DNA of 34,255 nt from NCBI GenBank assembly GCA_029548445.1, contig JAKPNJ010000316.1:1-34255 (forward strand), in the 5' to 3' direction. The DNA comes from Bacillota bacterium (GTDB lineage Bacteria > Bacillota > Clostridia > Saccharofermentanales > UBA5734). The translations under genes and the position numbers were made by a program. Below are positions 7,014 through 28,709 of this stretch, piece by piece. Every line of letters begins with the position of its first letter. Positions within the stretch are counted from its first letter, which is position 1. The notes under the pieces were generated by a model, which had not been told where the DNA came from, did not search any database, and worked only from the letters and a program-made list of their open reading frames with translations.

Positions 7014-7526
7014 ATGATGGAGATGTCCATGGAATTGCGGTGCGACCAGGCGGGTGCGCCGGAGAGCGAGCAGGACCGGTACGCCCTGCTGCGCCAGGTG
7101 ATCAGCCAGTACGAAGCGAAGGAAAGCAACCTGATCCAGATCCTGCACATGGGGCAGGCGATCTTCGGTTGCCTGCCGGAGGATGTCCAGCGGTTCATCG
7201 GGCAGGAAATGGACCTGCCCCTGCCCAGGGTCGCAGGGGTGGTTTCCTTCTATTCCTATTTCTCCACCCAGCCGAAGGGGCGGCATACCATCCAGGTCTG
7301 CCTGGGAACGGCCTGCTACGTCCGGGGCGGCAAGAAGGTGATGGAGGCCCTGCGGGACCATCTCGGCATCGACGTGGGGGAAACCACCGCGGACCGGCGG
7401 TTCTCCCTGGAGGTCAAGCGATGCATCGGCGCCTGCGGACTGGCACCGGCCGTGGCCATTGACGATGTCGTATACAAGCGGGTCGATCCCAACCGGCTGG
7501 CCGACATCCTCGGCCGCCACGCGTAG
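7014..7526 (+). CDS. hydC: NuoE/HydC-like [2Fe-2S] thioredoxin-fold subunit of [FeFe] hydrogenase complex
   Basis: QVISQYEAKESNLIQILHMGQAIFGCLPEDVQRFIGQEMDLPLPRVAGVVSFYSYFSTQPKGRHTIQVCLGTACYVRGGKKVMEAL...RCIGACGLAPAVAIDD: the C-x4-C ... C-x3-C [2Fe-2S] motif of NuoE. Confidence 0.93.
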   Translation: MMEMSMELRCDQAGAPESEQDRYALLRQVISQYEAKESNLIQILHMGQAIFGCLPEDVQRFIGQEMDLPLPRVAGVVSFYSYFSTQPKGRHTIQVCLGTACYVRGGKKVMEALRDHLGIDVGETTADRRFSLEVKRCIGACGLAPAVAIDDVVYKRVDPNRLADILGRHA

Positions 7527-7539
7527 GGAGGGTGGAGCC

Positions 7540-10500: not shown

Positions 10501-10656
10501 ACCGAGCACGAGCGGTTCCCCCGGCGCAGCATGAACCCCGAAACGCGCCGCCGGACCTTCGAGGAGGTCGACCGGGGCTACCGCCGACTCGACGCCATGG
10601 CCGAGGCCATGCGCTGCATGCGCTGCGACGGTCGCTTCACCGCATGCCGGGAATAG
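7540..10656 (+). CDS. NuoF/HydB-like FMN- and NADH-binding subunit fused to a C-terminal NfnB/GltD-like FAD/NADP(H) oxidoreductase
   Basis: N-terminal thioredoxin-like [2Fe-2S] domain; NuoF core GLRGRGGGGFPTGLKW, CNADEGDPGAFMDRSLLEGDP, ESCGKCVACRLGTRRMLEIL; then the GltD/NfnB cluster domain CGNACPASVDVSGYVALIAAGRPLDAYRLIRRENPFPAICGRVCTHPCESRCRR; FAD Rossmann VAIVGAGPSGLTCAYYLGRMGYDVEVYE; second Rossmann VIGGGSTAMDAARVALRKGASEVHVLYRR; terminal AEAMRCMRCD. One uninterrupted 1038-aa frame from ATG 7540. Confidence 0.92.
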   Translation: MKAIRDKIRSGADLERIREQYNALRKKYRNTILLCAGAGCISCGCHQVYESLLQELQAAGLSEEVLVKQTGCMGDCDVGPAMVIQPGGIFYCHLKPEDARTIVRSHLVGGQVAESLCFVDRRTGNRILHMEDIGFFNRQQRIVLKNCGKIDFDSLEEAVAAGGFSALHKALVGMTPDQVVEEVRKSGLRGRGGGGFPTGLKWSLARRSPGDRKYIVCNADEGDPGAFMDRSLLEGDPYALIEGMAIGGYAIGAETGFIYVRAEYPLAIERVTRAIEKCRQAGLLGKGLFGTSFRFDIEVRIGAGAFVCGEETALMNSVEGRRGEPRQKPPFPSEQGLFGCPTVINNVETFGNIPAILGRGGEWFASIGTEGSKGTKVFALAGDIHNTGIIEVPMGITLGEVIFDIGGGIPRGKRFKVAQTGGPSGGCLTREHLNTPIDYQSLVELGAIMGSGGLICMDEDTCMVDVARFFMEFVQDESCGKCVACRLGTRRMLEILERITRGEGREGDVEKLVELGESIRDTALCGLGQTAPNPVLSTIKYFREEYDEHIRHKYCRAGVCSDLFQSPCGNACPASVDVSGYVALIAAGRPLDAYRLIRRENPFPAICGRVCTHPCESRCRRAQLDEAVAICDLKRYAADEAMKNPVPEPEKVLPRNGRSVAIVGAGPSGLTCAYYLGRMGYDVEVYETQDVAGGMLAFGIPEYRLPKEVLRREIDSIRNVGVRIRTGVEVGRDLDFAELRKTHDAVYVATGTQRSRRIGIDGESLPDVYHGLDFLRDVNLGHPVSVEGVVAVIGGGSTAMDAARVALRKGASEVHVLYRRGIDDMPAEPREIREALEEGVVIHELVEPVALVGVVSVEKVICQRMALKGFDREGRRKPVKIPGEFVEFYVDLVIPAVSQYSDLPFVRPDEVELTLWGTFVVNPDSQETTIPGVFAGGDVVRGSDVVITAIADGKKAAAAIDRYLGGSGTLYKGDPVDIPSVFDESGQTEHERFPRRSMNPETRRRTFEEVDRGYRRLDAMAEAMRCMRCDGRFTACRE

Positions 10657-10672
10657 GCAGGAGGGATTCGAC

Positions 10673-12508
10673 ATGGTACACCTGACCATCAACGACACCC
10701 CGGTGACCGCCCATCCGGGCGAAACCATCCTGGAGGCCGCCTCCCGCAACGGTATCCTGATCCCGACGCTCTGCCACATGGAGGGCCGCCACAAGGTCGG
10801 CGCCTGCCGGATCTGCGTGGTGGAGGTCCAGGGAATGAAGAATCTCATGGCCTCCTGCGTGACGCCGGCCACCGACGGCATGGTCGTGCGGACCAGCACG
10901 CCCCGGGTCCGGAAGGCCCGGAAGATTCTCTACGAGCTCATGCTCTCCGACCATCCGGCCGACTGCCTCCACTGCGACCGGAACGGCCGATGCGAGTTCC
11001 AGCGGCTGGGCGAGACCCTGCAGATCCGGGAGTCCCGCTTCGAGGGCCGCCGGTCCCGGGACTTCGTGGACGACTCGAGCCCCTCCATCGTCCGGGATAC
11101 GGCCAAGTGCATTCTCTGCCGGCGCTGCGTGACCGTCTGCAGCGAGATCCAGGGCGTCGGGGCCCTGTCGCCCCAAAACCGCGGATTCGCCACGGAAATC
11201 GGTCCCGGCGGATCCTTGCGCCTGGGAACCGCCGTCTGCACGAACTGCGGCCAGTGCACCGTGGTCTGCCCGGTCAACGCCCTGCACGAGGCGGATTCGA
11301 CGGAGGCGGTGTGGAAGGCCCTGTCCGATCCCCGGAAGGTCGTGGTGGTCCAGACGGCACCGGCAGTCCGGGTCGCCCTGGGCGAGGAGTTCGACCTGCC
11401 GACGGGGACCCTGGTGACCGGCAAGATGGTGACGGCCCTCCGGCAGCTGGGATTCGACCAGGTGTTCGATACGAACTTTACGGCCGACCTGACGATCCTG
11501 GAGGAGGGCTACGAGTTGTTGGGACGGATCGTGTCCCTGCTCCGGTCCAAGGGCCTGGTGGACGACAGGCAGCTGGAGACGCTGGGGCTTCCGACCCACA
11601 TGGCCGCCCACCTGCCGGACCCGGTCCTGCCCATGATCACCAGCTGCAGCCCCGGCTGGATCAAGTACGTGGAACATTTCCACGGAACCCGGCTGGGCCA
11701 CCTGTCCACCTGCAAGTCGCCCCACATGATGCTGGGCGCCCTGGCCAAGTCCTGGTTCGCCGGGAAGGCGGGGATCGACCCGAAGTCCCTGTTCGTGGTG
11801 TCGGTGATGCCCTGCACCGCGAAAAAGTACGAGATCACCCGTCCCGAGATGGAGCAGGAAGGGCTCCGGGATGTGGACGCAGTCCTGACGACCCGGGAGC
11901 TGGCCCGGATGATCCGGGAGGCCGGCATCGACTTCGCCCGGCTGCCCGACAGCGCCTTCGACTCCCCCATGGGCCTATCCACCGGGGCCGCCGACGTCTT
12001 CGGCGTCACCGGCGGCGTCATGGAAGCGGCCCTGCGTACGGTCTACGAAGTCATTACCGGGCGCACCCTGCCCTTCGCGTCCCTCCATGTCGCCCCCATC
12101 GTCGGCCTGGAACAGGTCAAGACCGCCTCCATCGTCCTGGAGAATGTCTTGCCGCAATGGTCCTTCCTGGAGGGCCTGGAAGTCCGGATTGCCGTCACCA
12201 GCGGCCTCGACGGCGCCTCCCGCCTGATGGACGGGATCGCGGACGGCACCAGCCCGTACCATTTCATCGAGGTCATGGGGTGCCCCGGCGGATGCATTTC
12301 CGGCGGCGGCCAACCCCGCTCGCCGGATCCGGATTTTCGCCAGAAGCGGCTGGAGGCCATGTACCGGGAAGACGAGGGCAAGCCCCTGCGCAAATCCCAC
12401 GACAATCCCGATATCCAGGCCCTGTACGCGGAATGGCTGGGGGAACCGGGCGGGCACCGGTCCCACCACTACCTCCACACGACGTATACGACCCGGGTTC
12501 GACGGTAG
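10673..12508 (+). CDS. hydA: [FeFe] hydrogenase catalytic subunit, group A, M3-type modular architecture
   Basis: N-terminal [2Fe-2S]; HPADCLHCDRNGRC His-Cys cluster; CILCRRCVTVC and CTNCGQCTVVC [4Fe-4S] motifs; H-cluster motifs TSCSPGW, MPCTAKKYE, EVMGCPGGCISGGGQP. Confidence 0.96.
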   Translation: MVHLTINDTPVTAHPGETILEAASRNGILIPTLCHMEGRHKVGACRICVVEVQGMKNLMASCVTPATDGMVVRTSTPRVRKARKILYELMLSDHPADCLHCDRNGRCEFQRLGETLQIRESRFEGRRSRDFVDDSSPSIVRDTAKCILCRRCVTVCSEIQGVGALSPQNRGFATEIGPGGSLRLGTAVCTNCGQCTVVCPVNALHEADSTEAVWKALSDPRKVVVVQTAPAVRVALGEEFDLPTGTLVTGKMVTALRQLGFDQVFDTNFTADLTILEEGYELLGRIVSLLRSKGLVDDRQLETLGLPTHMAAHLPDPVLPMITSCSPGWIKYVEHFHGTRLGHLSTCKSPHMMLGALAKSWFAGKAGIDPKSLFVVSVMPCTAKKYEITRPEMEQEGLRDVDAVLTTRELARMIREAGIDFARLPDSAFDSPMGLSTGAADVFGVTGGVMEAALRTVYEVITGRTLPFASLHVAPIVGLEQVKTASIVLENVLPQWSFLEGLEVRIAVTSGLDGASRLMDGIADGTSPYHFIEVMGCPGGCISGGGQPRSPDPDFRQKRLEAMYREDEGKPLRKSHDNPDIQALYAEWLGEPGGHRSHHYLHTTYTTRVRR

Positions 12509-12670
12509 AACCGGAAACCTGCTGCCCGCTTGGCCGCCTCCCTCCGGCCCCTGCTTCCCGCTTCCCTGCGGGTGTATAATCAATGTGCCGTAACCGCGCC
12601 ATGCGGTGCATGCGAGCCGAGACCACGGCCGAATGCCGGGACCGGCCCAGGAACATGGGAGGGTAAAACC

Positions 12671-13624
12671 ATGAAGAGGTACCGCCATCCATCCCTGTTC
12701 ATCCGTCTCCTCCTCGTCCTCCTGATTCTCGTTTCACAGGTCTGGCTCGTCTCCGCCGCCGCGCCGCCAGACGCCCGCCCGTCCGCCGAAAGCGTCCACG
12801 CCGCCTTCCTCCGTCCCGCCGCCGCCACGGATGTCCAGATCGGCTACAGGGTCACGCTCGACGCCAAGGACGTCGTCTCAAGGAGCAAACCCGCGAAGCC
12901 CCCGGCGGCCACCGCGACCGGCATCCTGGGCACCCCGTGCACCGGCCAGCGCTACGCGCTCGTCATGGGCATCAACGATTACCCGGGAAGCGCGAGCGAC
13001 CTGTCCTACTGCGTGGCCGATGCCTGGGCTGTCCGGGACGTGCTGGTCGCCTACGGGTTTCCGTCCGCAAACATCACCTTCCTGCAGGATCGCCAGGTCA
13101 CCCGCGAAGCGATCGACGCCTTCACGCAGTCCCGTACCTTTGCTGCCGAAGACGAGATCTTCGTTTTCTATAGCGGCCATGGCTCGAAAGGCCGCGCCGA
13201 CGACTACGATACGCTGAAGACCGACCAGGCGATTGTCGTGTGCAACGCGACCTATACGGGATTCGATTCTATCTGGGACGGCGAGATGAAGAGGCTCTTC
13301 TCCGCTGTCCCGACGAATCGCATCGTGTTCGCGTTCGACAGCTGCTACGCCGGGGGCATGACCGTACTCGGACGGACGGGGGGCGAGGTTGTCATGGCCT
13401 GCACCGCCAACGCCCTGTCGTATGAATCCTCCGCGTATGGCGGCGGTCACGGCGCCTTTACCTGGTTCTTCTTCTGCGAAGGGATCGCCGCCCGCAAGGC
13501 CGAGCTTTCGACCGACGACAACGACATCGTGACAATCGAAGAGGCTTTCGATTATGCGAAGCCGCTCCTCGGCAGCCAGACCCCGGTCCTGAACGACGGG
13601 CTGGAGAACGATTTCGCTCCGTAG
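12671..13624 (+). CDS. Secreted caspase-like (C14/metacaspase-type) peptidase
   Basis: Signal peptide MKRYRHPSLFIRLLLVLLILVSQVWLVSAAA; caspase fold YALVMGINDYPGSASDLSYCVADAWAVRDVLVAYGFPSANITFLQDRQVTREAI; His motif FYSGHGS; Cys motif FDSCYAGG. SD GGGAGGG upstream. Confidence 0.9.
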   Translation: MKRYRHPSLFIRLLLVLLILVSQVWLVSAAAPPDARPSAESVHAAFLRPAAATDVQIGYRVTLDAKDVVSRSKPAKPPAATATGILGTPCTGQRYALVMGINDYPGSASDLSYCVADAWAVRDVLVAYGFPSANITFLQDRQVTREAIDAFTQSRTFAAEDEIFVFYSGHGSKGRADDYDTLKTDQAIVVCNATYTGFDSIWDGEMKRLFSAVPTNRIVFAFDSCYAGGMTVLGRTGGEVVMACTANALSYESSAYGGGHGAFTWFFFCEGIAARKAELSTDDNDIVTIEEAFDYAKPLLGSQTPVLNDGLENDFAP

Positions 13625-13677: not shown

Positions 13678-16308
13678 TCAGTCCGGCAGCGGGTCCAGGA
13701 TCGCCAGTCCCAGGATGTGGCGTCGGATCAGCAGCAGGTCCAGGGAATTGATCCCCGCCGCGTCCCCGTTGGCGTTGGCGGCCTCTGCCGGCGCGCCGTC
13801 CAGGGCGGCCAGGCCCAGTAGGTGCCGGCGCGCCTGCAGGAGGTCCAGGGAGTTGACCTGCCCGTCCCCGCTGCAGTCTCCCCGGACCAGGACGAGAAAC
13901 TGTTCAAGGATTGTGTCCTTGTATGAAACCAGGACTTCCAGCCCGGTTCCCGCCAGGGCGCCGGGGGAAGCGCCGGGAGGGTCCCGAAGCGACACGTCGG
14001 CGCCCTGGCCATTCAGCCGGGACAGGAAAGCCGTTCGGGTGGTTCCGGGCCGGACGCCCAGGATCCGGCCGGTTTCACGGTCAATCCGGTAGTCCGCGCT
14101 GCTCATGGGCCGGAATAGGAAGGACAGCCGGATTTCCAGCAGGGGGCTGGGATTCCCGGCCCGGTCGAAGCAGACCGCCCGCAGGTCCAGGATGTCGCCG
14201 TATTCACCGGTCAGCACCAGCGGCCCGATGTACCGGGGACTGTCGGGTCCCGGCGGAGCCCCGTTCAGGGTGTAATGGGTCGATGCGGCATCCCCCGGGG
14301 GGACCAGGGCGACGGAGACCGATCCGGGATCCACCCGTCCGGATCCCCGGGAGGACAGCGGCGCCGTCGGCGGGGTCCGGTCAAGGAGGAAGGACAGGAC
14401 GGCGGGAGGGGAGATGCCGTCGGAGGCTTCGACCCGATGGGTTCCTTCGGCTGTGAGGCGGTACACCGGGCCGGACCCCGGGGGTGTCCCGGGCACACCG
14501 TCCAGCTGGAAGGACAGCGCAAGGGGAGCGGCCCCGCCCATGGCCAGGACCAGGACCTCCTGCCGGGTGGTGCCTCCGTCCGGTACCGGGAAACCGTCCG
14601 GATCCCGGGCGGCCAGCACCGGGATGTCGGGTCCGGAGGCCGATGCCCTGTACAGGAGGATGGTCCAGAGACGGGCATGGACGCCGTTCTCGGCCAGGAT
14701 GCGGAGGTAGAAAGCGTTTGGTCCCGGTAAAAGGGACAGGGCCGAGGCGTCCAGGGGAACGAAGCCCTCCGGATCCGCGGATACGGCCCATGTGGCACCG
14801 GGGCTGGCCTGGGGCGACAGGGAGACGACGGCCGTCTCCGATGGAACGACGGCGGTCCAGAAGGGGAAGGCAACCAGGTCCGGCTCCAGCCCCATCATGT
14901 CCAGGAGTTCGCATTGGTCGGAGGGCAGGCGCAGGTCGTCCACGAAGGCCAGGAGGGCGGGCGGATCCAGCCGTCCGTACCCGTAGCAGACATCGTACCC
15001 GGGATCCCCTCCGTCCTCCGATGTCACCGCCAGGGCTTCCAGGAACAGGCCGGGGGACAGGTCCGGCACCAGGGCCCGGGCCAGGGCGGCCACGGCAGAC
15101 ACGTGGGGGGTGGCGAAGGAGGTGCCGCTGCCGTTCCCGTAGGTGCTGCCGGGCCGGAGCCCCCGAATGCCCTCCCCGGGCGCGGATACCGTCACCCGGT
15201 CGTTGCAGTTGGAAAAGGACGAGCGGGTCCCCGTGGCATTGTGGGCGGCGACGCCCACAACACCGGGCAGGGCGGCGGGATAATTGTAGGCTGCATTCCC
15301 GGCGTTGCCGGCAGCGGCTACGACGATACACCCCCTGGCCAGGGCATAGTCGACGGCCTGGGCCAGGGCATCGGACGCCTCGTCGCTGCCCAGGCTCAGG
15401 TTGATGACGTCGGCGCCGGCCTCGACGGCCAGGTACAGGGCGGCGATCAGGTCGGCCTCGAAGGCCAGCAGGGTTCCGTCTTCCTGCTTGTGAAAGATCT
15501 GGAGCGGCAGGATCGAGACATCGAAGCAAAGGCCGGCGATCCCGGTTGCATTGTTCGGAACGGCGGCGATGATCCCGGCGACGAAGGTGCCGTGGGTGCC
15601 CATGTCCCGGGTGACCGGCGTTCCGGCCACGAAATCGTATCCCGACAGCAGGGAGGCGCCGGCGAAGTCCTCATGGGCCGGATCCAGACCGGTGTCGATG
15701 ATCGCCACCACGACCCCGTCGGATCCCCGGGTATAGGTCCAGGCGGTGCCCATGGCCAGGGCATCCAGCGCCCACTGTTGGGATCGGTCGGGATCATTGA
15801 CAGTCACGGCCGCCGGGATCGCCTGTCCTTCCGCCTGGAGGGACTGAATCCTGTCCCCGCCCCGGGTTCGGAACGCATCCGGATCCTCCGGGAAGACCAG
15901 GGCGGTGCGGCTGTCCGATGGGCCCAGCCATGCATGGGGCAGCGGGTCCAGGAGGTCCCCAAGGGTTTCCCGGGTTTCCCCCTCCCGGAACAGGACCAGG
16001 AAGGGAGCCTGGCCGGAACCAATCGGCCTCGGCCGGCGACGGGTGCTTTCGACCGGCGGGTTCGCAGGGGCTGCCGACCCCGCATTGTCCGGCTGGGCGC
16101 GGTCCACGGGCCGCAAGGCCTGGCCCATGGGCCGCAGGGCCAGGGCCACCGTATCCTGGAAGGCGGATTCGCCGGAATCCGGCCTCGCGGCCGCGACAAC
16201 GCCTTCGGCCAGCCCGCCGTCTCCCGGCGGAAACCCGGGCGACAGGACCAGGAGAATGGCCAGGAGGAACGCCAGGGCCCTCCCGGGAAGGCGGTCGGAA
16301 TGCGGCAT
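13678..16308 (-). CDS. Secreted S8 (subtilisin-like) peptidase with C-terminal type I dockerin
   Basis: Signal peptide; catalytic motifs VAIIDTGLD, THGTFVAGI, GTSFATPHVSAVAALA; C-terminus GDCSGDGQVNSLDLLQARRHLLGLAAL...ANGDAAGINSLDLLLIRRHILGL is a duplicated dockerin segment. Confidence 0.94.
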   Translation of the reverse strand: MPHSDRLPGRALAFLLAILLVLSPGFPPGDGGLAEGVVAAARPDSGESAFQDTVALALRPMGQALRPVDRAQPDNAGSAAPANPPVESTRRRPRPIGSGQAPFLVLFREGETRETLGDLLDPLPHAWLGPSDSRTALVFPEDPDAFRTRGGDRIQSLQAEGQAIPAAVTVNDPDRSQQWALDALAMGTAWTYTRGSDGVVVAIIDTGLDPAHEDFAGASLLSGYDFVAGTPVTRDMGTHGTFVAGIIAAVPNNATGIAGLCFDVSILPLQIFHKQEDGTLLAFEADLIAALYLAVEAGADVINLSLGSDEASDALAQAVDYALARGCIVVAAAGNAGNAAYNYPAALPGVVGVAAHNATGTRSSFSNCNDRVTVSAPGEGIRGLRPGSTYGNGSGTSFATPHVSAVAALARALVPDLSPGLFLEALAVTSEDGGDPGYDVCYGYGRLDPPALLAFVDDLRLPSDQCELLDMMGLEPDLVAFPFWTAVVPSETAVVSLSPQASPGATWAVSADPEGFVPLDASALSLLPGPNAFYLRILAENGVHARLWTILLYRASASGPDIPVLAARDPDGFPVPDGGTTRQEVLVLAMGGAAPLALSFQLDGVPGTPPGSGPVYRLTAEGTHRVEASDGISPPAVLSFLLDRTPPTAPLSSRGSGRVDPGSVSVALVPPGDAASTHYTLNGAPPGPDSPRYIGPLVLTGEYGDILDLRAVCFDRAGNPSPLLEIRLSFLFRPMSSADYRIDRETGRILGVRPGTTRTAFLSRLNGQGADVSLRDPPGASPGALAGTGLEVLVSYKDTILEQFLVLVRGDCSGDGQVNSLDLLQARRHLLGLAALDGAPAEAANANGDAAGINSLDLLLIRRHILGLAILDPLPD

Positions 16309-18433: not shown

Positions 18434-19276
18434 ATGCAGCCCTTCCATGAAACCCGGACCTACGGGGGCGGCCTGCGCCTTGTCGCGGTCCGATCTTCCG
18501 GAATGGAGTTCCTGGCCCACTGGCAGGAGGACGTGGAGGTCTTCTTCGTGGCGGAAGGGGAGCAGCGCATCGGGATCCAGGGCCGGATCCTGGCCCTTGG
18601 TCCCGGACAGCTGGTGCTGTTGGGGTCGGGCGAGATCCACCACTACGAGCCGTCCGCCGGCTGCGTCGGCTTCATGCTGATCTTCCCCCGGGACCTGTCC
18701 CCGGATTGGACCTTTCCCCTGGAGTCCGGTCTCCATACCTTCCGGGATCCCGACAGGATCCGGACGATTGCAGGCTGGATGGCGGCCATGGCGGACGAGA
18801 TGGCCTCCCGGCGCCCGGGCTATGCCCTGGTGGCAGATGGAACCCTGCGGCTGTTCCTGGCCGCCCTGGTCCGGCCGGACCCGGCCCGGGAGACGGAACC
18901 CCTCCCGGATCCGGGACGGACGGCGGATCCGCGGATGCAGGAGATCCTGGACTACCTGGCAACCCACTACCCGGAGCCCCTGGACCGGGACGCCGTGGCC
19001 CGCCGGTTCCATTGGAGCCCTTCCCACTTCTCCCGCCGCTTCCGGGACGCAACGAACCTTGCCTTCTCCGAACACCTGGCCCGCCTGCGGCTGGAACACG
19101 CCTGCCGCGCCCTGCGGCAGACCCGGACCCCGGTCTCGGACATCGCCCTGGACTGCGGGTTCGACAGCGTCCGGACCTTCAACCGGGCCTTCCGGCGCCA
19201 CCTCGGCACCTGCCCCTCCGCAATCCGGGAGGACGGCACGGGTGCCCGGGGCGATCCAGCCAGGCCATTTCCCTAG
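18434..19276 (+). CDS. AraC family transcriptional regulator with N-terminal cupin domain
   Basis: Cupin-like N-terminus (EVFFVAEGEQRIGIQGRILALGPGQLVLLGSGEIHHYEP) and AraC HTH (LDRDAVARRFHWSPSHFSRRFRDATNLAFSEHLARLRLEHACRALRQTRTPVSDIALDCGFDSVRTFNRAFRRHLGTCPSAIR). Divergent from the ThuA/Gfo pair. Confidence 0.95.
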   Translation: MQPFHETRTYGGGLRLVAVRSSGMEFLAHWQEDVEVFFVAEGEQRIGIQGRILALGPGQLVLLGSGEIHHYEPSAGCVGFMLIFPRDLSPDWTFPLESGLHTFRDPDRIRTIAGWMAAMADEMASRRPGYALVADGTLRLFLAALVRPDPARETEPLPDPGRTADPRMQEILDYLATHYPEPLDRDAVARRFHWSPSHFSRRFRDATNLAFSEHLARLRLEHACRALRQTRTPVSDIALDCGFDSVRTFNRAFRRHLGTCPSAIREDGTGARGDPARPFP

Positions 19277-21468
19277 GGCAAGGCGGCGACCTCGGCCTCG
19301 AGCAACGCGAAATCCGCATCGTTCCGGATCGGGTCGAACCCGAAGGCCGCCTCGAACCGGCGCAGGTCGTCGTATCGGTTCGCCAATTCCCCGGCCAGGT
19401 CCCCGTCCGCCGACCGGTAGAGGACATAGAGGGCCGTGTCCTGGAACGTGTCGGACAGGACGGCGCGTCCCGCCTCCATCCGCACCGGTATGGGTCCGAT
19501 CCCGTCCCGGTGGACCCGGACCGCCGCGTCGCAGTCCCGGAGCCAGGCCGGCACCGGGAACGACAGCTCCCCGGTCCGGGGGCCCGCCGACACGAACTCG
19601 TTGTACCAGGCTTTCCGGTATTGCAGGTCGATGGCGAACAGGACCGCATGATCCTCGCCCGCCAGCACGTTTTGGTCCAGGTCGAGGAAGCGGTTCTCCC
19701 AGGCATAGGGAGCGGACTGGCCCAGGAGCCGGTCCACCGTCCGGATTTCCCGCCCGATTTCCTGGAGCACCGCCAGCCGGTCCCGGTTCGCCGACACATT
19801 CTTCCCGGACAGGTTGAACCAGTACAGGGACACCGCCCCGTTGGCCAGGGCCTCATACGCCTGGATCCGGATCTCCAGCGGATTCGGGTTGCCGGAAGCC
19901 GGCCGCAGCAGGGAGAACCAGCCGTCCGACAGGGCCTGGGACCAGGCCGCGATGGGATTGGGCCGGCTCAGGGCCGCCAGGGTGCGCATGTAGAAGCCGA
20001 TGGTCTCCAGCGGGGCTCCCCAGGGGACATTTTTCGACCCGTACCGGACATAGGCTCCCCAGCGGTCCGCATGGGGCGCCACCACCCGGTAGGCGTCGAA
20101 ATGGGGTAGGTCCGTCAGGCCGGCATATCGATGGAAACCCGGTTCATGGGACAGGGTCAGGGTCGTCGGGTACCCCGATTCCCGGTACTCGGCCAGGTAG
20201 ATATCGGCGATGCCCTGGGCCGGCCGGTTGTCGAACTGGGGTTCCCCGAACCGCTCGGAGCCATGGACCAGCGGCAGCCATTCGGGCGAACTCTTCACCG
20301 CGATGTCCGGGAGACTGTCGAAGGTTTTCATGGGGTGGGCCGCGACCCGGTCCGGATCGTCGTAGTAGGCACCCGGTCCCCCGTGGAACGTGTTGACGTG
20401 GAGGGACCGGATGGTCTTCCGGAAGGCTTCGCTGCCCACCAGCGCCTCCGTACCCCACCCCATGCTGAGGTCGAATTCGGTGACCACCGGCTTGGTGGAC
20501 TGGTAGATGTCACGGGAACCATCCGGACCGAGGATTTCGAAAGACAGGACCATTTCTCCGAAGGGCAGCGGCCCCGTCGACACCCGGGCGCCGCCCATGT
20601 CCCCGGGGGGAATCCCGGCTTCGCCGCCGAAGGGCGCCACCGACCGGGGAGCGGCCGTCTCCCGCCACCAGTGCTCCCGGTACGTGCCGTAGGAAGGCCA
20701 TAGGGTGATGCGCCCGAGGGACACGGGCGAAGCGGACCGGTTTCGCAAGAAAACCAGGAACCCGTCCGGGATCCGGTCCCCGGCCTCCGACGCAAACACG
20801 ATCCGCTCGACGGTCACGTCCGCTTCCGCCACCCGGATCGTCCCCTGCGCCTGCTCCCCGGTTTTCCGGTCGGTCATGGCAATGGCGATGCCGTTCCGAT
20901 AAAAGCCCGGGTCGAGGATGTTCAGGGTCCAGCAGTCCAGGGTCCCCCGGGGAAGGCCGTCGGACACCTTGCCCAGGGCCTCCCGGCTGTCCGGCACATC
21001 GCACCAGGACAATACCCCGGTGCCCACCAGGTCCAGCCCCGTCCGGCCGTTGAAGAGGACATCGGCCCGGATGTCCCGGTCTTCCGACACGTTCCGGACG
21101 AAGATCCGGACCAGGGCCCCCAGGTCCTCCGGCACGGCGAAGGGATCCTCCCGGCCGTAGCTTGCGATCTCCCCGGACACCCCGTGGGGCACCACCGTCA
21201 CCCCGGCGATCTCCACCGGCAGTGTGCCTGTCATCGGATGCTCCCCCCCTCCCGTGGGAACCGGATCCCCGGTGGGCCCAATCGTGGGCGCTCCCGTGGG
21301 GGTCGCCGCAGACCCGCCCGTGGGAGTCGGACCCGGGCCGGACCGGCATCCGGAGAGCGGAAGGCCCGCCAGCAGGACGGCGGCTGCAAGCCCCAACGCA
21401 GCGCAGAGAGAGCCCTTCCGGAATAAAGAGAAGGGGCGGTAGGCTCCCGCCATGGAATCAGCGTCCAT
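19273..21468 (-). CDS. Large uncharacterised lipoprotein, possible TIM-barrel glycoside-hydrolase-like fold
   Basis: Lipobox ..LLAGLPLSGC followed by a G/P/T-rich linker (RSGPGPTPTGGSAATPTGAPTIGPTGDPVPTGGG); later segments (LHVNTFHGGPGAYYDD, IADIYLAEYRESGYPTTLTLSHEPGFHRYAG, AYEALANGAVSLYWFNLS) look like barrel strands. No family recognised with confidence. Confidence 0.75.
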   Translation of the reverse strand: MDADSMAGAYRPFSLFRKGSLCAALGLAAAVLLAGLPLSGCRSGPGPTPTGGSAATPTGAPTIGPTGDPVPTGGGEHPMTGTLPVEIAGVTVVPHGVSGEIASYGREDPFAVPEDLGALVRIFVRNVSEDRDIRADVLFNGRTGLDLVGTGVLSWCDVPDSREALGKVSDGLPRGTLDCWTLNILDPGFYRNGIAIAMTDRKTGEQAQGTIRVAEADVTVERIVFASEAGDRIPDGFLVFLRNRSASPVSLGRITLWPSYGTYREHWWRETAAPRSVAPFGGEAGIPPGDMGGARVSTGPLPFGEMVLSFEILGPDGSRDIYQSTKPVVTEFDLSMGWGTEALVGSEAFRKTIRSLHVNTFHGGPGAYYDDPDRVAAHPMKTFDSLPDIAVKSSPEWLPLVHGSERFGEPQFDNRPAQGIADIYLAEYRESGYPTTLTLSHEPGFHRYAGLTDLPHFDAYRVVAPHADRWGAYVRYGSKNVPWGAPLETIGFYMRTLAALSRPNPIAAWSQALSDGWFSLLRPASGNPNPLEIRIQAYEALANGAVSLYWFNLSGKNVSANRDRLAVLQEIGREIRTVDRLLGQSAPYAWENRFLDLDQNVLAGEDHAVLFAIDLQYRKAWYNEFVSAGPRTGELSFPVPAWLRDCDAAVRVHRDGIGPIPVRMEAGRAVLSDTFQDTALYVLYRSADGDLAGELANRYDDLRRFEAAFGFDPIRNDADFALLEAEVAALP

Positions 21469-21483
21469 CGGCAACACCTCCCC

Positions 21484-22845
21484 TCATGCGGGCAAGCCGA
21501 GGAAGCGCTTCAGCTTCCGGTTGTCGGCGGGCAGGGGAATGGGGCGAACCTGGAAATCGAGGCCGCAGGGGATGTCATACGCGGCGAGTTCCTCCCGGAA
21601 GCGGGCTTCCAGGGCATCCACGATGCCCTGTTCCGCACCGGGCAGGGGAACCGTTCCGTCCCAGGCCCCGATCCCCAGGTCCAGGGCGATCCGAAGCCGG
21701 TCCGGCGCCACCTGTTCCACCTGGAACTCCCGGATCCGGTCGTCGGTGGTGATGATCCACCGGCTGGCCAGGTCCGGGAACACGGCCCGCCGGACCCCGT
21801 TCCGGTCCTGCAGGTACAGGACGTCGTCCTGCCGGCCGATGACCCTGGCGAGAGTCCGGAACTTGCTGCCGCAGGGACAGGGACCCCCCAGCTCCACCAG
21901 GTCGTTCATCCGGTACCGGATCAGGGGCTGGGCCCCGTTGACCAGGTTCGTGACCAGCATCCGAGCCGGCCGCCGGCCGGGCTCCGTGACAGGGGTGCCG
22001 TCCTCGTCCTCCAGCTCCACGTAGGCCAGGTCCTCGTTGATGTGGAGGGTGCCGCACCGGCAGGGGCTGGCGATCTGGCCCTCGCTGGCCTGGTAAATCT
22101 CCGCCACCGGTGCCCCGAAGACCCGGGCGAACCGTGCCTTCTCCTCGGGTTCCAGGACCTCGGCATAGGTCAGGATGCGCCGGGGAGGCCGGGCCAGCCG
22201 GTCCCGGAACGGCAGCAGCTGGCGAAGGACCGAGGGCGGCGCCATGAGCACGTTGCCGTCCATGGCGTTGAACGCGTCGAGGATGTCGGCGGGCGGTGTC
22301 ATGGAATGGAGGTAGCGGAGGCGGATCAGGGGGGCGTTGATGTCGGCGAATCCCTGGCTGAACACCCGGAGGATGAACAGGATCCGGAGGGGCAGGTCAG
22401 AGAGGCGGACGCCGCCCCGGGCCAGGAAGACGCCGGGGAGCCGCCGGGTCAGGGACCGGGGGGTCAGGTACAGCCCCTTGTTGCCGCTGGTGCCGGAAGA
22501 AAGACCCACCACGAAGCGGCCGCGCCAGTAGCCCAGGTCGTCCCGGCGCCGCTCCTTGTCCAGGGCGTAGGCCATCACCTCGTCCTTCCGGGCCCCGACG
22601 GTGTTCAGGGTGTCGAAGTGCTCCATCATCTCGGCCTTGTCGACCTGGGGGAACCGGCGGAAGGCCGACAGGCGCCGGAGCGGCAGTCCCCGGAGGGTTT
22701 GCTGGTAATAGGGGCTCTTCTGTCGGGCCAGGCGAACCAGGCGGACCAGGGCCCGGAGCTGTCGGGACCGGATGCGCCGGACCGGGTCGTGGTACAGGCG
22801 GTGGGTCAGGATCGCCCAGTCGGCCAGGTTTCGCAGGAGGGCCAT
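21484..22845 (-). CDS. PaaK-like adenylate-forming enzyme (phenylacetate-CoA ligase / F390-synthetase-related)
   Basis: MALLRNLADWAILTHRLYHDPVRRIRSRQLRALVRLVRLARQKSPYYQQTLRGLPLRRLSAFRRFPQVDKAEMMEHFD...VVGLSSGTSGNKGLYLTPRS...EIYQASEGQIASPC...LVTNLVNGAQPLIRYRMNDLVELGGPCPCGSKFRTLARVIGRQDDVL. SSGTSGNKG P-loop and RYRMNDLV motifs. True start 22845; the ORF-track extension to 23976 is out-of-frame shadow. Confidence 0.9.
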   Translation of the reverse strand: MALLRNLADWAILTHRLYHDPVRRIRSRQLRALVRLVRLARQKSPYYQQTLRGLPLRRLSAFRRFPQVDKAEMMEHFDTLNTVGARKDEVMAYALDKERRRDDLGYWRGRFVVGLSSGTSGNKGLYLTPRSLTRRLPGVFLARGGVRLSDLPLRILFILRVFSQGFADINAPLIRLRYLHSMTPPADILDAFNAMDGNVLMAPPSVLRQLLPFRDRLARPPRRILTYAEVLEPEEKARFARVFGAPVAEIYQASEGQIASPCRCGTLHINEDLAYVELEDEDGTPVTEPGRRPARMLVTNLVNGAQPLIRYRMNDLVELGGPCPCGSKFRTLARVIGRQDDVLYLQDRNGVRRAVFPDLASRWIITTDDRIREFQVEQVAPDRLRIALDLGIGAWDGTVPLPGAEQGIVDALEARFREELAAYDIPCGLDFQVRPIPLPADNRKLKRFLGLPA

Positions 22846-24071
22846 CAGCCCGCGTCTCCCCGAAGCGTCCGGGCCTTGGCGCTGTCCGCTCCCAGGCGGG
22901 AGACCACGAACCCGTACGAATGCTCCACGCTGCCCACATAGTGGGCTTTCTCCCAGGCCATCAGGGCAAAGCCCCAGAGGAGGGCCAGGACCAGGCCGAA
23001 CAGGAGGGCGCCCGGAATGGACAGGGACAGGCCGGGCCACAGCATCACCAGCAGGCGATGGGCCAGGGCCGCCACGATGCTCTCCCAGAAGAAGGCGGTC
23101 AGGCCGGCCTGTCCGAACCGGACCAGGAACCGGACCGCCGGCGCAGCGAAGCCGGTGACGGGCCCGGGTTTCCGGTCCAGCAGGGCGGTGGCGCCCCGGA
23201 TCATCAGGCAGAACAGGCCCAGCTGGGCGGTCATGATGCTGTACCACTTGGCGTCGATGGACCGTTGGAGCATGGTGTCCGGCAGGAAGACATAGGCGGC
23301 CATGCCGGACAGGAAGAGAAGGATCCCGGTCCAGGTCACGGGCCGCAGGCTGCGTCCCCCGTATAGCCGGAGGCCGATCCAGGCGCCCGCGAGGCCGAAG
23401 GCGAGATACGGAAGAATGGGGTTGTTCTTGTTGACCAGCCAGTTGAGCAGCAGGACCTGGCCCCAGCGGCCGTCCGCCAGGGCGTCGAGATAATCGCCGT
23501 ACAGCGGGATTCGGGCGAGGGAGGCCGCCATGACCGCCGCCGCCGCCACCAGCACGGCGTTGGGCCGCATTCGGCCGAACCGCCGGAACAGCAGGAGGAC
23601 GAGGCTTACCAGGAGAACATTGGTGCCGATCATGACCAGGCTGTCCACATACAGCACCCGGTCCAGGCTGAAGCCGGTCCAGCGCCCGTGGCGGATGGCC
23701 TCCACCAGGAGGCTGTTGTCCATGCGCCGGGCGGCGAAGTCCGCCAGGCCCGGGCCGGTGAAGAGGAAATACAGGTAGGCCGTGACCAGGATGAAGACTG
23801 CCGAGACCAGTTTCTTGCGCAGGATCCGGCCCGATGGCCAGCCGGCGGGACCGGCCAGCCGGGCGATCCCGATGGCGTGGACGGCGCCGCTGATCATGGC
23901 GAACAGGCCGGCGAACATGAGGAGGAACCCGATCACCGTGATGACCAGGGGCGGGTTGTCCAGGTCCAGGTCCCACAGGCCGTCATAGTAATAAAAGGCG
24001 GCATGCAGGAGGATCAGGCAGAAAATGCCCAGCCCCCGCAGGAAATCCAGTCCCTTCCAGTGCCGTTCCAT
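22845..24071 (-). CDS. Integral membrane acyltransferase-like protein (DUF1624/HGSNAT-like)
   Basis: MERHWKGLDFLRGLGIFCLILLHAAFYYYDGLWDLDLDNPPLVITVIGFLLMFAGLFAMISGAVHAIG followed by multiple hydrophobic segments. SD AGGAGG 5 nt upstream of the ATG. TGATG overlap with the downstream gene. Confidence 0.75.
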   Translation of the reverse strand: MERHWKGLDFLRGLGIFCLILLHAAFYYYDGLWDLDLDNPPLVITVIGFLLMFAGLFAMISGAVHAIGIARLAGPAGWPSGRILRKKLVSAVFILVTAYLYFLFTGPGLADFAARRMDNSLLVEAIRHGRWTGFSLDRVLYVDSLVMIGTNVLLVSLVLLLFRRFGRMRPNAVLVAAAAVMAASLARIPLYGDYLDALADGRWGQVLLLNWLVNKNNPILPYLAFGLAGAWIGLRLYGGRSLRPVTWTGILLFLSGMAAYVFLPDTMLQRSIDAKWYSIMTAQLGLFCLMIRGATALLDRKPGPVTGFAAPAVRFLVRFGQAGLTAFFWESIVAALAHRLLVMLWPGLSLSIPGALLFGLVLALLWGFALMAWEKAHYVGSVEHSYGFVVSRLGADSAKARTLRGDAG

Positions 24072-24080
24072 GTACACCTC

Positions 24081-24737
24081 CTAAAAATCGCCGCTGTAGC
24101 GGACCAGGGAAGCCGACAGGACGCCGGGCACCTTCTGGAGCCGCTCAAGGAAACTCGTGTCGGCGGGGTCCACCCGGATCTCCACCACCAGTTCCACCGA
24201 CTGGGGCGTCACGGTCTTGCTCTTGATGCGGAACGGGGGGACCAGCCGGGCCAGGTCCCCCTGGAAGGCGTCGGTGGTCCGCAGCACCAGGAGGAAGGGC
24301 CGGCGGATCCGCCCCATGCGCTGGACCAGGGTGGCCAGGACCATGATCACGGCCAGGGCCAGGCACCCGACGACGGCCAGCTCCAGGAACCCGGCGCCGG
24401 CGGTCAGGCCCAGGGCGATGGCCCAGAACATGAAGACAATGTCCAGGGGATCCTTCAGGGCGGTCCGGAACCGGACGATGGACAGGGCGCCCACCATGCC
24501 CAGGGACAGGACCAGGTTGGAACTGATGGGCATGATGACCAGGGAGGTCACCAGGGAGACCATCAGGAGGGCGGTCCCGAAGGTCCGGTTCTCCAGGACG
24601 CCCCGGTAGGTGGTCCGGTACACCGCCAGGATCAGCAGTCCCATCACCAGGGTGACGGTCAGGGTCGTGGCGATGCGCCCCAGGGTCAGGGGCTGGTTGA
24701 CGTTGGTCTCCAGGAGTTTTCTCAGGAGTTCGGTCAT
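24081..24737 (-). CDS. DUF4956 domain-containing membrane protein
   Basis: TELLRKLLETNVNQPLTLGRIATTLTVTLVMGLLILAVYRTTYRGVLENRTFGTALLMVSLVTSLVIMPISSNLVLSLGMVGALSIVRFRTALKDPLDIVFMFWAIALGLTAGAGFLELAVVG: the SLGMVGALSIVRFRTALKDPxDxxFxFWAIxxGL segment is characteristic of DUF4956. Confidence 0.88.
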   Translation of the reverse strand: MTELLRKLLETNVNQPLTLGRIATTLTVTLVMGLLILAVYRTTYRGVLENRTFGTALLMVSLVTSLVIMPISSNLVLSLGMVGALSIVRFRTALKDPLDIVFMFWAIALGLTAGAGFLELAVVGCLALAVIMVLATLVQRMGRIRRPFLLVLRTTDAFQGDLARLVPPFRIKSKTVTPQSVELVVEIRVDPADTSFLERLQKVPGVLSASLVRYSGDF

Positions 24738-24825
24738 GGCGGCGGTTCCCTTCCTTCCATTCCGGCCTGCGGGCCGTCCTTCGCCGGGAATGCACATCCC
24801 TGTCCCGGCGCCAGGGTCTGTTCAC

Positions 24826-25617
24826 CTACGGATCCAGCCACAGGGCCTGGGGGTCGGCCCATCGTCCGGGCTCGATGGCCCGGCAGCAGAGGGCGTACTT
24901 GCTGAGGGCCAGGGGAATGGCCCCGTCCAGGGGCAGCATGCGCCGGAGGAAATCCGGCAGGATCCGGTCGGTCTTGATCTCCAGGATCGTGGCGCCCGGG
25001 GGGAGGATCGGGAAAAGGGCCGCCCCCGGGTCGAACAGGTCCGTCCGGTACAGGCCGCTGGAGAGGTGGCGGTCGAAGGTGATGCGGATGCCCAGGGGCG
25101 GGAACACCAGGGGGATCCGGAGATAGTCCACCAGGACCCGCGGCACGAGGCGCCGGGTCCGGTGGCCCAGGTGGAGCTCCGCCCCCAGTCCCGGCCGGTC
25201 GGCCAGCCAGTCCAGGTCGCCGGACAGGATCCGGTCGACCTGTTCCCGGGTCAGGGGCGTGATTCGCTTGGCGGTCCGGGCGCCCCTCCGCATCTTCTTC
25301 TCCAGGTGGATGATCCGGTCCTGGCCGTCGTAGATGCGAATCCGGAACTTGTGGCGGGGATCGGAACCGGCCAGCTTCTCGGCCAGCCCATGGCGCTCTT
25401 CCGTATCCCAGTACAGGCTTCGGATCCGGTAGGCGGACAGCGGTTCTCCCGGCAGCGGGCGGGCGTGGGGATCCGTGGAAAGGACAGGCCGCAGCTGCCA
25501 GCACAACTGCAGGAAGGCGGCCTCGTCCAGCAGGTACTTTTCCTCGATCCGCCACCGGATCGGGACCCGGGCGTGACCCTTGTCGGAAGCGGGCAGGCCG
25601 GAGGGAGCGGGCCTCAC
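24826..25617 (-). CDS. Polyphosphate polymerase (VTC) domain-containing protein
   Basis: RIEEKYLLDEAAFLQLCWQLRPVLSTDPHA..YRIRSLYWDTEERHGLAEKLAGSDPRHKFRIRIYDGQDRIIHLEKKMRRGARTAKRITPLTREQVDRIL..RITFDRHLSS...ILEIKTDRILPDFLRRML: VTC-domain features. GTG start at 25617 overlaps the CotH stop (GTGA). Confidence 0.9.
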   Translation of the reverse strand: MRPAPSGLPASDKGHARVPIRWRIEEKYLLDEAAFLQLCWQLRPVLSTDPHARPLPGEPLSAYRIRSLYWDTEERHGLAEKLAGSDPRHKFRIRIYDGQDRIIHLEKKMRRGARTAKRITPLTREQVDRILSGDLDWLADRPGLGAELHLGHRTRRLVPRVLVDYLRIPLVFPPLGIRITFDRHLSSGLYRTDLFDPGAALFPILPPGATILEIKTDRILPDFLRRMLPLDGAIPLALSKYALCCRAIEPGRWADPQALWLDP

Positions 25618-28600
25618 GGGTCGTCCCCCGGGAACAGCCGGGCCATGTCGGCGTCGCCGAGGCCGAAGGAATTCCGCAGGATACCCTTGGTCCGGTCCCG
25701 CTTCTCCAGGGAAATCCGGCGCAGCGTCGCCACGTTTTTCTCCCACGCCTCCACGGATCCGGGCCGGCCCCAGCGGGCGATCTGCCGGGGCATCTCGCTC
25801 CGGATCTCCGCCGCCATGCCGTCCAGGATGCCGACCATCCGGTCAGGCCGAAACACTTCGTTCAGGTACCAGGCGTATCGCTGCAGGAAAGCCTCCCGGA
25901 AATCCGGGTTCTCCAGGAGCCGGACCTGGAGGAGGGTGCTGAAGATGTTGTCGGACCCGTGGCCGGCCGGGTCCAGCAGGTCGCCGGACAACATGTTCCA
26001 GGTATAGGTACCGGGGAAGAGCCCCCAGTCCAGGTCGAACAGGATCCAGCGCCACTGGCCGTCCTCCGTCCGAGGGCGCCAGAACTTCTTGTTGCCCGAG
26101 TCGGCGTTGTTGTAGAAGGACTGGACGATGACGAAGTCCATGAGGCTCTCCTCGTCGATCCAGCCCAGGACTTTGGCATACGCCTCGGGATTCCGCAGGT
26201 CGTGCTCCCGGACGTACTTCAGCAGGGCCTGGTAATTCCGGTTGTCCCCTTCCCGGACGATGTTGTTGCCCTTGATGATGTCCACCTGGTCGGGATCGGC
26301 GCCGTGGTGGGCGGCCATGTAGGTCTCGTCCGCGTTTTCGCGGATCTCATAGAGCCCGTAATACGCGCCGTTGACGTAGACTGCGCAGAAGCGGACGGCC
26401 ATGATGTCCAGGGCTGTGTATCCCTCGACGATCCGGGTCATGTAGGCGTCCCGCAGCTTCGAGATCTTCCAGTCCTGCCCCGAGGTCCGGAGGACCAGCC
26501 GGCGGAAGGTGGAGACCTCGTTGCCGGGGAAAAAGGGATAGGTCACTTCCGGGTCCCCGTATCCCCTGCGGAGGTTGATTTCCATGGATTTCTGCAATTC
26601 CTTGCGGCTGTATTGCCCATGGAGGGCCAGGCCGGCCCGGAACCGGACGCCTTCCCGGCCGCCGGCCTCGAAGAAGGCGATCTCCGCAGGCCGCTCCATA
26701 TCGGATGTAAACAGGGTCCAGAGGCCCGACGGCCCGTCGAAGTCCCGGGGATCCATGGCGACGGACAGGACGGGCAGGTCGTGCCGCAGCTCCATCAGGA
26801 CCGTCCGGACGGAGGGCCGTCCGGGAAGGCGGGGAGAGGCGCCGGACCCGCCCGGCGGGTCGAAGGCGGCGGCCCGGACCACGGCGGAACGGGACAGGAC
26901 GAAGGGGCCTTCGTAGGCTTTCGAAGAGGCGGTGGGCTCGCTGCCGTCCAGGGTATAGGTGACCCGGTCCCCGGCGAGCGCGGGCTGCAGCGAGACGGTT
27001 ACGGGTCCCTCGGCGTACAGGCCGTCCAGGGGGCGGCCGGCCTCGTCGGCGACCCGGATGGCCGGTGCGGCGGCGATGCCCTGGCAGGCCAGGGTCGTAT
27101 TGGCCTTCCCCTTGGTTGGATCCGGAAAGAACCATCGGTCCGGAAGGGTCGGCTCGCCCTCCGTCCCACGGACCCGCCCGCTGCTGACCCCGGGCCGGAG
27201 CCAGCCGGTTTCGAGGGCATCGACGGGCCGGCCGTCCGGCCCCATGAGAAGGAGGACCTCTCCCCGTACCGAGATCCCGAAGGTGTCAGGCGCGACAACC
27301 CGGTACTCGCCGGGGTCCATCACGATACCGGAGAGGGGCCAGCGGCCCGGCTGCCCCGGATCGTCCGTCAGGGCATATCCGTCCAAGGCCAGGGGCGCGC
27401 CGGCATTGTTGTACAGCTCGATCCAATCCCCGTCGCCATTGCCGCGCATGGCGGCGTCCTGGGCCAGCACCTCGCTGATCCATACCGGCTTCAGGTCCAG
27501 GGACGCGGCCGACCGGAGGTCCGGAAACCCGACGCCGTCATTGGGCCGGCCGGGGGAGGGCAGCGGGAAGTAGGCCCATGTCTCGCCGGCTTCCCCTCCG
27601 CCCCCCTCGCCGGATCCGGCCGGCGCCGGCACGCGACCCCGGGACACGCCCAGGGGGAGGGCCTCCAGGGTCGCCCGGGACAGGATCCGTCCCCGTTCGT
27701 CCAGCAGGAGCAGGACGGCGTCGTCGCCCCCCAGCCGGAAGGGGGCATGGGGGGACAACGGGGCGCCGGGTTCCGGCCCCGGACCATTCCAGGCCTTCTC
27801 CTTGCCCGACAACCACAGGACCAGGTGTTGGCCCGGCTCGATCCGGAGCGCAGGGAACCGCCATTTGTCCGGGCGGCCGGGGTCGTCGGTCAGGGCGAAT
27901 CCCTCGAGGTCCAGGGGGTCGGTCCCCTCGTTCACCAATTCCACCCAGTCGGACAGGTCTCCATCCTCGTCCGGGAAGGACGCGTTGCGGGTCACGAACT
28001 CGTTGATGTGCAGGGTGGAAACCGGCGCCGGCAGGGCCTGGTCCGCCGTCAGCCGCCCGTCCGGACCATTTTGCCTGCCGGGAGTCGGGGCGCCGAAGAA
28101 CAACCGGGGGACGTCGGGCTGTCCGGCCCGGGCGCCCATGGGATCCAGCCCGTAGGATATGTCGTCCGGCAGGACGGGAATCGTCCACTGGTCCAGGACC
28201 TGGCCGTCCGGGGCCGTCAGGACCAGTTCCTCCCCGGCGCCGGAAAGGCGGAAGCCGGCATGAAGACCCCCGTCCGCTGCCGACTCCCCGGCGGCGACCC
28301 CGTCATCGTCCCCGGAGGCGTCTGCCCCGCCGCCGTCCGCATAAACCAGCAGGTATCCGCCCGGCGCCAGGACCAGGTCGGGAAACGTCCATTTCATGGG
28401 ATTCCGCAGGCTGTCCGACAGGCCGATGCCCAGCAGCGGAACGGGCGTATCGCCGGCATTCCGGAGCTCGATCCAATCCGGCGTCGCCCCGGACGGGAGG
28501 ACCAGGGATCCGGTGTTCCTGGAGAGCACCTCGTTGATGTGGAGGCCGGTGTCGGACCGGGGCGCCTCCGTAGGGGACGGGGCCTGGCCGTCGGGCACAA

Positions 28601-28709
28601 GGGGCCGGTCCCAGTCGATGGGCAAGCCGTCGCAGCCGGCGGCGGCCAGCAGCAGGGCCCCGGCAAGGAACAACCAGAGGAGGCGGACCCGGATCGGCAT
28701 CGACGGCAT
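25614..28709 (-). CDS. CotH kinase family lipoprotein with multiple lamin-tail (LTD) domains
   Basis: Lipobox LLLAAAGC; repeated LTD blocks (LHINEVLSRNTGSLVLPSGATPDWIELRNAGDTPVPLLGIGLSD; LHINEFVTRNASFPDEDGDLSDWVELVNEGTDPLDLEGFALTD; VWISEVLAQDAAMRGNGDGDWIELYNNAGAPLALDGYALTD); CHB_HEX-like VTYTLDGSEPTASSKAYEGP; CotH core SGQDWKISKLRDAYMTRIVEGY...AVYVNGAYYGLYEIRENADETYMAAHHGADPDQVDIIKGN...WRWILFDLDWGLF. Confidence 0.95.
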   Translation of the reverse strand: MPSMPIRVRLLWLFLAGALLLAAAGCDGLPIDWDRPLVPDGQAPSPTEAPRSDTGLHINEVLSRNTGSLVLPSGATPDWIELRNAGDTPVPLLGIGLSDSLRNPMKWTFPDLVLAPGGYLLVYADGGGADASGDDDGVAAGESAADGGLHAGFRLSGAGEELVLTAPDGQVLDQWTIPVLPDDISYGLDPMGARAGQPDVPRLFFGAPTPGRQNGPDGRLTADQALPAPVSTLHINEFVTRNASFPDEDGDLSDWVELVNEGTDPLDLEGFALTDDPGRPDKWRFPALRIEPGQHLVLWLSGKEKAWNGPGPEPGAPLSPHAPFRLGGDDAVLLLLDERGRILSRATLEALPLGVSRGRVPAPAGSGEGGGGEAGETWAYFPLPSPGRPNDGVGFPDLRSAASLDLKPVWISEVLAQDAAMRGNGDGDWIELYNNAGAPLALDGYALTDDPGQPGRWPLSGIVMDPGEYRVVAPDTFGISVRGEVLLLMGPDGRPVDALETGWLRPGVSSGRVRGTEGEPTLPDRWFFPDPTKGKANTTLACQGIAAAPAIRVADEAGRPLDGLYAEGPVTVSLQPALAGDRVTYTLDGSEPTASSKAYEGPFVLSRSAVVRAAAFDPPGGSGASPRLPGRPSVRTVLMELRHDLPVLSVAMDPRDFDGPSGLWTLFTSDMERPAEIAFFEAGGREGVRFRAGLALHGQYSRKELQKSMEINLRRGYGDPEVTYPFFPGNEVSTFRRLVLRTSGQDWKISKLRDAYMTRIVEGYTALDIMAVRFCAVYVNGAYYGLYEIRENADETYMAAHHGADPDQVDIIKGNNIVREGDNRNYQALLKYVREHDLRNPEAYAKVLGWIDEESLMDFVIVQSFYNNADSGNKKFWRPRTEDGQWRWILFDLDWGLFPGTYTWNMLSGDLLDPAGHGSDNIFSTLLQVRLLENPDFREAFLQRYAWYLNEVFRPDRMVGILDGMAAEIRSEMPRQIARWGRPGSVEAWEKNVATLRRISLEKRDRTKGILRNSFGLGDADMARLFPGDDP

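Follow-up and report, generated by a model that had tools for sequence, protein, structure and literature searches.

Do six closely packed genes on one strand make up one machine, or have separate machines come to lie side by side? The question is raised by a window of 34,255 nucleotides from a Bacillota bacterium of the Saccharofermentanales (JAKPNJ010000316.1, positions 1 to 34,255), which is contig 15 of a 3.03-Mb assembly in 359 contigs that is 97% complete. From 28709 to 19273, over approximately 9.4 kb of the minus strand, the window carries genes for a CotH-domain lipoprotein, a VTC-domain protein, a DUF4956 membrane protein, a membrane acyltransferase, a PaaK-like adenylate-forming enzyme and an orphan lipoprotein. 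Probably, this is a genuine packed string in which two evolutionarily separate envelope modules, the CotH-VTC-DUF4956 triad (module 1) and the acyltransferase-PaaK pair (module 2), have been joined with the orphan lipoprotein in this lineage, rather than a conserved six-part machine. The chemistry that we infer for each module is discussed with its proteins.

Evidence for Two Separate Modules

Two surveys were used to compare the neighbourhoods. DUF4956 was searched for in the host and 57 relatives (58 genomes), and 84,980 species genomes were scanned with an alignment of PaaK-like sequences, which gave 80 loci (the PaaK sequence alone as the query gave nothing). The triad joined to the pair was seen only in the window. 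No acyltransferase or PaaK homologue was found in the examined flanks of any of the 28 other triads, and none of the 47 other pairs had a match to VTC, DUF4956, CotH or the orphan lipoprotein in its examined flanks. The preliminary description of this DNA had proposed a single six-gene system, to be given up if its last three genes did not accompany the core in related genomes. That is what was found, and a conserved six-part system is rejected by the DUF4956 and the PaaK neighbourhoods together.

The distribution of the modules over genomes points the same way. Among the 23 genomes of the host's family, the pair occurs in four and the triad in 14, and two genomes have both, where 2.4 would be expected by chance. 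DUF4956 was found in 11 of the 30 PaaK-bearing genomes elsewhere, which is not above its frequency among the relatives (37/58). There is therefore no sign that either module depends on the other. One genome (G006) carries the pair and has neither DUF4956 nor CotH, and in another of the same family (G009), the pair and a VTC-DUF4956 pair lie on separate contigs. The pairings within each module, in turn, recur across many genomes and are not due to chance.

Structure of the Gene String

All six co-directional open reading frames were confirmed to be present (Table 1). From CotH to the orphan lipoprotein, the gaps between them are −4, 88, 9, −1 and 15 bp; the second follows from a DUF4956 start that was set by alignment of homologues. 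The gene identities and junctions given in the preliminary description proved correct, and its coordinates, starts, stops and overlaps hold with small refinements. The guanine-cytosine (GC) content by codon position is of the coding type in all six genes, including the orphan (GC3 0.86–0.94 versus GC2 0.42–0.51), in a window with a GC content of 68%. The CotH protein and the orphan lipoprotein each have a hydrophobic leader with a lipobox at its end (AAGC and LSGC, respectively). An Rfam search of the window returned no riboswitch and no other RNA family.

Table 1. Genes of the string (positions in the window).
Feature	Position	Strand	Remarks
Module 1a, CotH-domain lipoprotein (3 LTD + CHB_HEX_C_1 + CotH kinase domain)	25614..28709	-	1031 aa; PF08757 E 1e-38, PF00932 x3, lipobox LAAAGC
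Module 1b, VTC-domain (triphosphate-tunnel) polyphosphate polymerase-like protein	24826..25617	-	263 aa; GTG start; GTGA overlap with CotH; PF09359 E 6.5e-28
Module 1c, DUF4956 membrane protein	24081..24737	-	218 aa; PF16316 E 2.7e-11
Module 2a, transmembrane acyltransferase, AT3/HGSNAT fold	22845..24071	-	408 aa; R-X10-H motif; start behind AGGAGG
Module 2b, PaaK-like adenylate-forming enzyme	21484..22845	-	453 aa; TGATG overlap with acyltransferase; TIGR02304 relative, E 1.8e-68
Orphan lipoprotein	19273..21468	-	731 aa; lipobox LSGC; no family; 15-bp gap after PaaK-like gene

The modules meet at the 9-bp gap between the end of DUF4956 and the acyltransferase, which is preceded by a strong Shine-Dalgarno sequence. 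Because the junctions are tight and this sequence is strong, both modules and the lipoprotein are likely to be co-expressed in this organism. The same features would suit an integrated surface system, in which one extracellular polymer is served by both parts, the triad through polyphosphate or phosphorylation and the last three genes through acylation: the junctions are short throughout, two of them are overlaps, and no terminator-like site was found in the 88-bp gap. However, such a system has to contend with the unlinked triads and pairs described above, with a co-occurrence in the family at chance level and with an orphan lipoprotein for which no full-length relatives were found, and we regard it as unlikely. 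The opposite explanation is that the modules are plain neighbours without joint expression, either separate transcription units that a rearrangement has placed side by side or the product of a mis-joined contig in a metagenome-assembled genome (MAG). It draws on the fact that the linkage comes from a single MAG of 359 contigs and that the modules are unlinked elsewhere. However, an AGGAGG at the right distance within a 9-bp gap is not expected from a mis-join, and neither GC content nor GC3 changes from one side of the junctions to the other; this explanation also has a low probability.

The Triad and Its Relation to Pel

DUF4956 was found at 49 places in the 58 genomes, three of them in the host. 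VTC stands immediately before it in all 45 loci that have both, and CotH lies either before the two, as in the window, or after them. In 29 loci, CotH is present within 6 kb, so that the triad is indeed the recurring set (29 triads in 58 genomes) that the preliminary description took it to be. Its statement that this set has no assigned function is not entirely right, as the three genes have been published, with mutant phenotypes, as a Gram-positive Pel accessory set (PMC7112168, PMC12345266). The first paper on Gram-positive Pel named them an accessory group (PMC7112168). In Streptococcus intermedius, mutation of DUF4956 or CotH did not abolish Pel but changed its amount, and the mutants showed less aggregation; the authors of this 2025 study did not find the three-gene arrangement outside Pel loci (PMC12345266).

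In the present survey, only four of the 29 triads have PelG within 10 kb, 25 do not, and 20 triad-bearing genomes have no PelG at all; the host itself has three triads and no PelG. The triad is thus common without Pel genes, which contradicts the Pel-only inference of the 2025 study (PMC12345266), and its role should therefore be sought beyond Pel. In eight loci of the host's family, orthologues of the window triad (CotH scores of 650–1030 bits) stand by themselves as sets of three genes, followed downstream by convergent or unrelated genes. The DUF4956 tree groups the window with these eight triads (Shimodaira-Hasegawa-like approximate likelihood ratio test 89, under the 95 mark). The two further triads of the host (G000:C33 and G000:C86; loci L043 and L044) have no acyltransferase or PaaK gene nearby. 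In genome G014, the VTC gene is broken into two frames (L067:8940-9701), by a frameshift or a sequencing error.

It could be argued that the window holds the accessory locus of a Pel-like exopolysaccharide, comparable to the CotH-PPP-DUF4956-DUF4832 set of streptococci and clostridia, with the orphan lipoprotein in place of the DUF4832 glycoside hydrolase. Besides the published association and phenotypes, pelG does adjoin four triads from the host's family or order. The window triad and the accessory genes of S. intermedius (SIR_1594-1592) share the same three families, adjacent and co-directional: a secreted CotH protein, a soluble VTC protein and a membrane DUF4956 protein with MgtC/ACT features. 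However, the window has neither pelDEADAFG nor the DUF4832 hydrolase, and its CotH protein differs in being a lipoprotein and in its three LTD domains. Most triads have no PelG nearby, and the orphan lipoprotein gave no DUF4832 match even at E 10. Since a host genome of this completeness has no PelG, the Pel reading was rejected for this locus, and we consider it very improbable.

The CotH domain is clear (PF08757, 134 bits versus a curated cut-off of 23.8), and the protein has orthologues of approximately 50% identity within the family. An alignment of nine orthologous sequences shows D870 and the motif FDLDW (D892, D894) to be invariant, which makes D870 and D892/D894 candidates for the catalytic aspartate pair of CotH. 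In B. subtilis CotH, this pair is D228/D251 (PMC7821199). A search of the PDB with the CotH protein gave no match onto which these positions could be mapped. The VTC domain scored 98 bits (PF09359, cut-off 23) in a protein without a transmembrane helix. A profile of 23 VTC sequences matches yeast Vtc4 (E 4e-12), and R92, R94 and E213 of the window protein, invariant in the 23 sequences, align with R264, R266 and E426 of Vtc4, as counted manually along the alignment. Replacement of these three residues inactivated yeast VTC (PMC9911596). DUF4956 (PF16316, 43.9 bits versus a curated 30.6) has an N-terminal transmembrane bundle and a C-terminal ACT/MgtC-like tail, with a weak MgtC match in NCBIfam; its core, GMVGALSIVR, is invariant.

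Taken together, these features suggest that a cytoplasmic VTC enzyme would make polyphosphate from adenosine triphosphate (ATP) at the membrane with DUF4956 as its membrane partner, and that the CotH lipoprotein, a kinase-fold enzyme on the outside, would have a protein or polymer of the envelope as its substrate. The resemblance to the eukaryotic VTC complex lies in the polymerase domain with its three equivalent residues and in a separate multi-helix membrane partner encoded alongside. In contrast to Vtc4, the window protein has no SPX domain and no fused transmembrane helices. A bolder proposal is that the triad is a general, not a Pel-specific, system in which polyphosphate made inside is exported via DUF4956, as through the eukaryotic VTC channel, and used outside by the CotH kinase as a phosphate donor or building block where ATP is scarce; the pair would be a second, cross-domain module for acyl activation and acyl export on the same transcript. 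This proposal as a whole seems unlikely to us. No sequence relation was found between DUF4956 and the VTC membrane domain.

The Acyltransferase-PaaK Pair

The acyltransferase adjoins the PaaK-like gene in 45 of the 80 loci, 28 in the order of the window, many of them with a short overlap of a few bases, and 17 in the reverse order. Two more pairs of the same family (L218 and L219) bring the number to 47 besides the window. The hosts are Cryosericota/Caldiserica, Izimaplasma, Acholeplasmataceae, Erysipelotrichia, Peptococcaceae, an actinobacterial MAG, Bacteroidota, Atribacterota and Heimdallarchaeota, so that the range includes wall-less Mollicutes and Asgard archaea. No other gene common to the pair neighbourhoods was found across the host groups. 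In the PaaK tree, the state of pairing and gene order changes five times, compared with a mean of 36.9 after shuffling, and the window is sister to the same-family locus of G009 (L135, support 99). A literature search found no description of the pair in the papers that it covered, and the pair is apparently a widespread module that has so far gone undescribed.

An apparent absence of the acyltransferase from the class was a sampling effect, as three other same-family genomes carry it. A supposed acyltransferase-PaaK fusion in G006 (an 878-aa open frame) was also rejected: there are two adjacent genes, and the PaaK protein has a nucleotidyltransferase-like C-terminal extension. In genus g7, the PaaK-like enzyme (L218:8913-12290, L219:1549-3723) is extended at its C-terminus by approximately 215 aa, which resemble a nucleotidyltransferase domain. 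A spirochaete PaaK homologue near the paired clade (L163:10001-11341) has no detectable neighbouring acyltransferase. Acyltransferase-free homologues of the Bacillus/Paenibacillus type (L128-L132) lie beside a β-ketoacyl-acyl carrier protein synthase III-like (OleA-like) enzyme, an NAD epimerase, a metallo-hydrolase and an ATP-grasp-like protein, which suggests a different use of the PaaK-like family.

The acyltransferase matches Acyl_transf_3 (PF01757) with E 5e-4 and 19.6 bits, under the Pfam cut-off of 31, and its homologues also score below this cut-off; there was no match to the HGSNAT-type family PF07786 in the Pfam scan. All 44 sequences have R14-X10-H25, in transmembrane helix 1, and E332 (100%; numbered from the GTG at 24077, which is +2 relative to a count that starts at the ATG at 24071). 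The signature of AT3 enzymes, R-X10-H, is described as essential and as conserved without exception, and in the model of OafB, acyl coenzyme A (CoA) comes in on the cytoplasmic side and its acyl group ends up outside (PMC9833829). In AT3 enzymes, an RXXR motif lies on the cytoplasmic face of transmembrane helix 3; the window protein has an RILR, which is not conserved across the homologue alignment. An AlphaFold model built from 42 sequences (predicted local distance difference test (pLDDT) 92.6; predicted template modelling score 0.92) was compared with the PDB using Foldseek. The best match was human HGSNAT (8vlg_A, prob 1.00, TMq 0.56, E 1.3e-3), which bears out the HGSNAT-like character given in the preliminary description; GWT1 (prob 0.99) was the sole other convincing match. 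With OafB, OatA and HGSNAT, the protein thus shares a multi-helix membrane fold, R-X10-H, a conserved glutamate and, by analogy, acyl transfer across the membrane; it differs from them in having no SGNH domain, in its sub-threshold Pfam score and in its regular pairing with a PaaK-like enzyme.

The PaaK-like enzyme scored 231.5 bits against TIGR02304 (F390 synthetase-related), just under the NCBIfam cut-off of 251.9. It shares full-length homology, the AMP-binding P-loop and the C-terminal lysine with these enzymes, and the P-loop SSGTSG and K445 are kept in essentially all 80 sequences. It differs from them in that curated cut-off and in its Bacillus/Paenibacillus homologues, which cluster without an acyltransferase. 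In the simplest reading of the two together, the PaaK-like enzyme probably activates a carboxylic acid with ATP, most likely onto CoA. The acyltransferase would take the cytoplasmic acyl-CoA and pass its acyl group through the membrane; the acceptor would be a hydroxyl or amine on the extracytoplasmic side, probably of a glycolipid or surface glycan. In the D-alanylation of teichoic acids, DltA and DltB likewise modify the surface through a cytoplasmic adenylating enzyme and a membrane acyltransferase. However, DltB is an MBOAT protein and the Dlt pathway uses a carrier protein; neither an MBOAT nor a carrier protein was found at the window pair.

Orphan Lipoprotein

No full-length homologue of the orphan lipoprotein was found in the 58 genomes of the survey or in 391 genomes of the class and 399 of the phylum, and neither Pfam at E 10 nor the PDB nor plasmids gave a family or full-length match. 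The sole matches were to the signal peptide and to a proline/threonine-rich region. A single-sequence AlphaFold model (pLDDT 33) was unusable. Identification as a DUF4832 hydrolase like SIR_1591, or as another known barrel, was rejected on these searches.

Weighing the Joined Modules

Both modules may act on the same cell surface, and neither needs the other. Several points weigh against the explanation by two joined modules. On the MAG contigs, many of the examined flanks span less than 10 kb, so that a more distant linkage could have been missed. The 9-bp gap with its strong Shine-Dalgarno sequence suggests selection for co-expression, which could mean a functional link in this lineage. For module 2, PaaK-like enzymes can also work without CoA and yield acyl-AMP or amides. 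For module 1, no Pel phenotype was reported for the S. intermedius VTC mutant (PMC12345266). Two things merit following up. One is that the triad is independent of Pel; the other is the pair, exposed here as a compact combination of acyl activation and membrane acyltransferase that is conserved in Asgard archaea and in several phyla of bacteria, the wall-less Mollicutes included.

Other Genes of the Window

At lower window coordinates, a fusion of a NuoF-like flavoprotein with a pyridine-nucleotide oxidoreductase is followed by an FeFe-hydrogenase (7459-12508, plus strand), a hydrogenase set of the electron-bifurcating type. A caspase-like (Peptidase_C14) protein is encoded at 12530-13624 (plus strand), and its neighbour at 13678-16308 (minus strand) is a subtilase that carries CHB_HEX_C_1 together with a type I dockerin.

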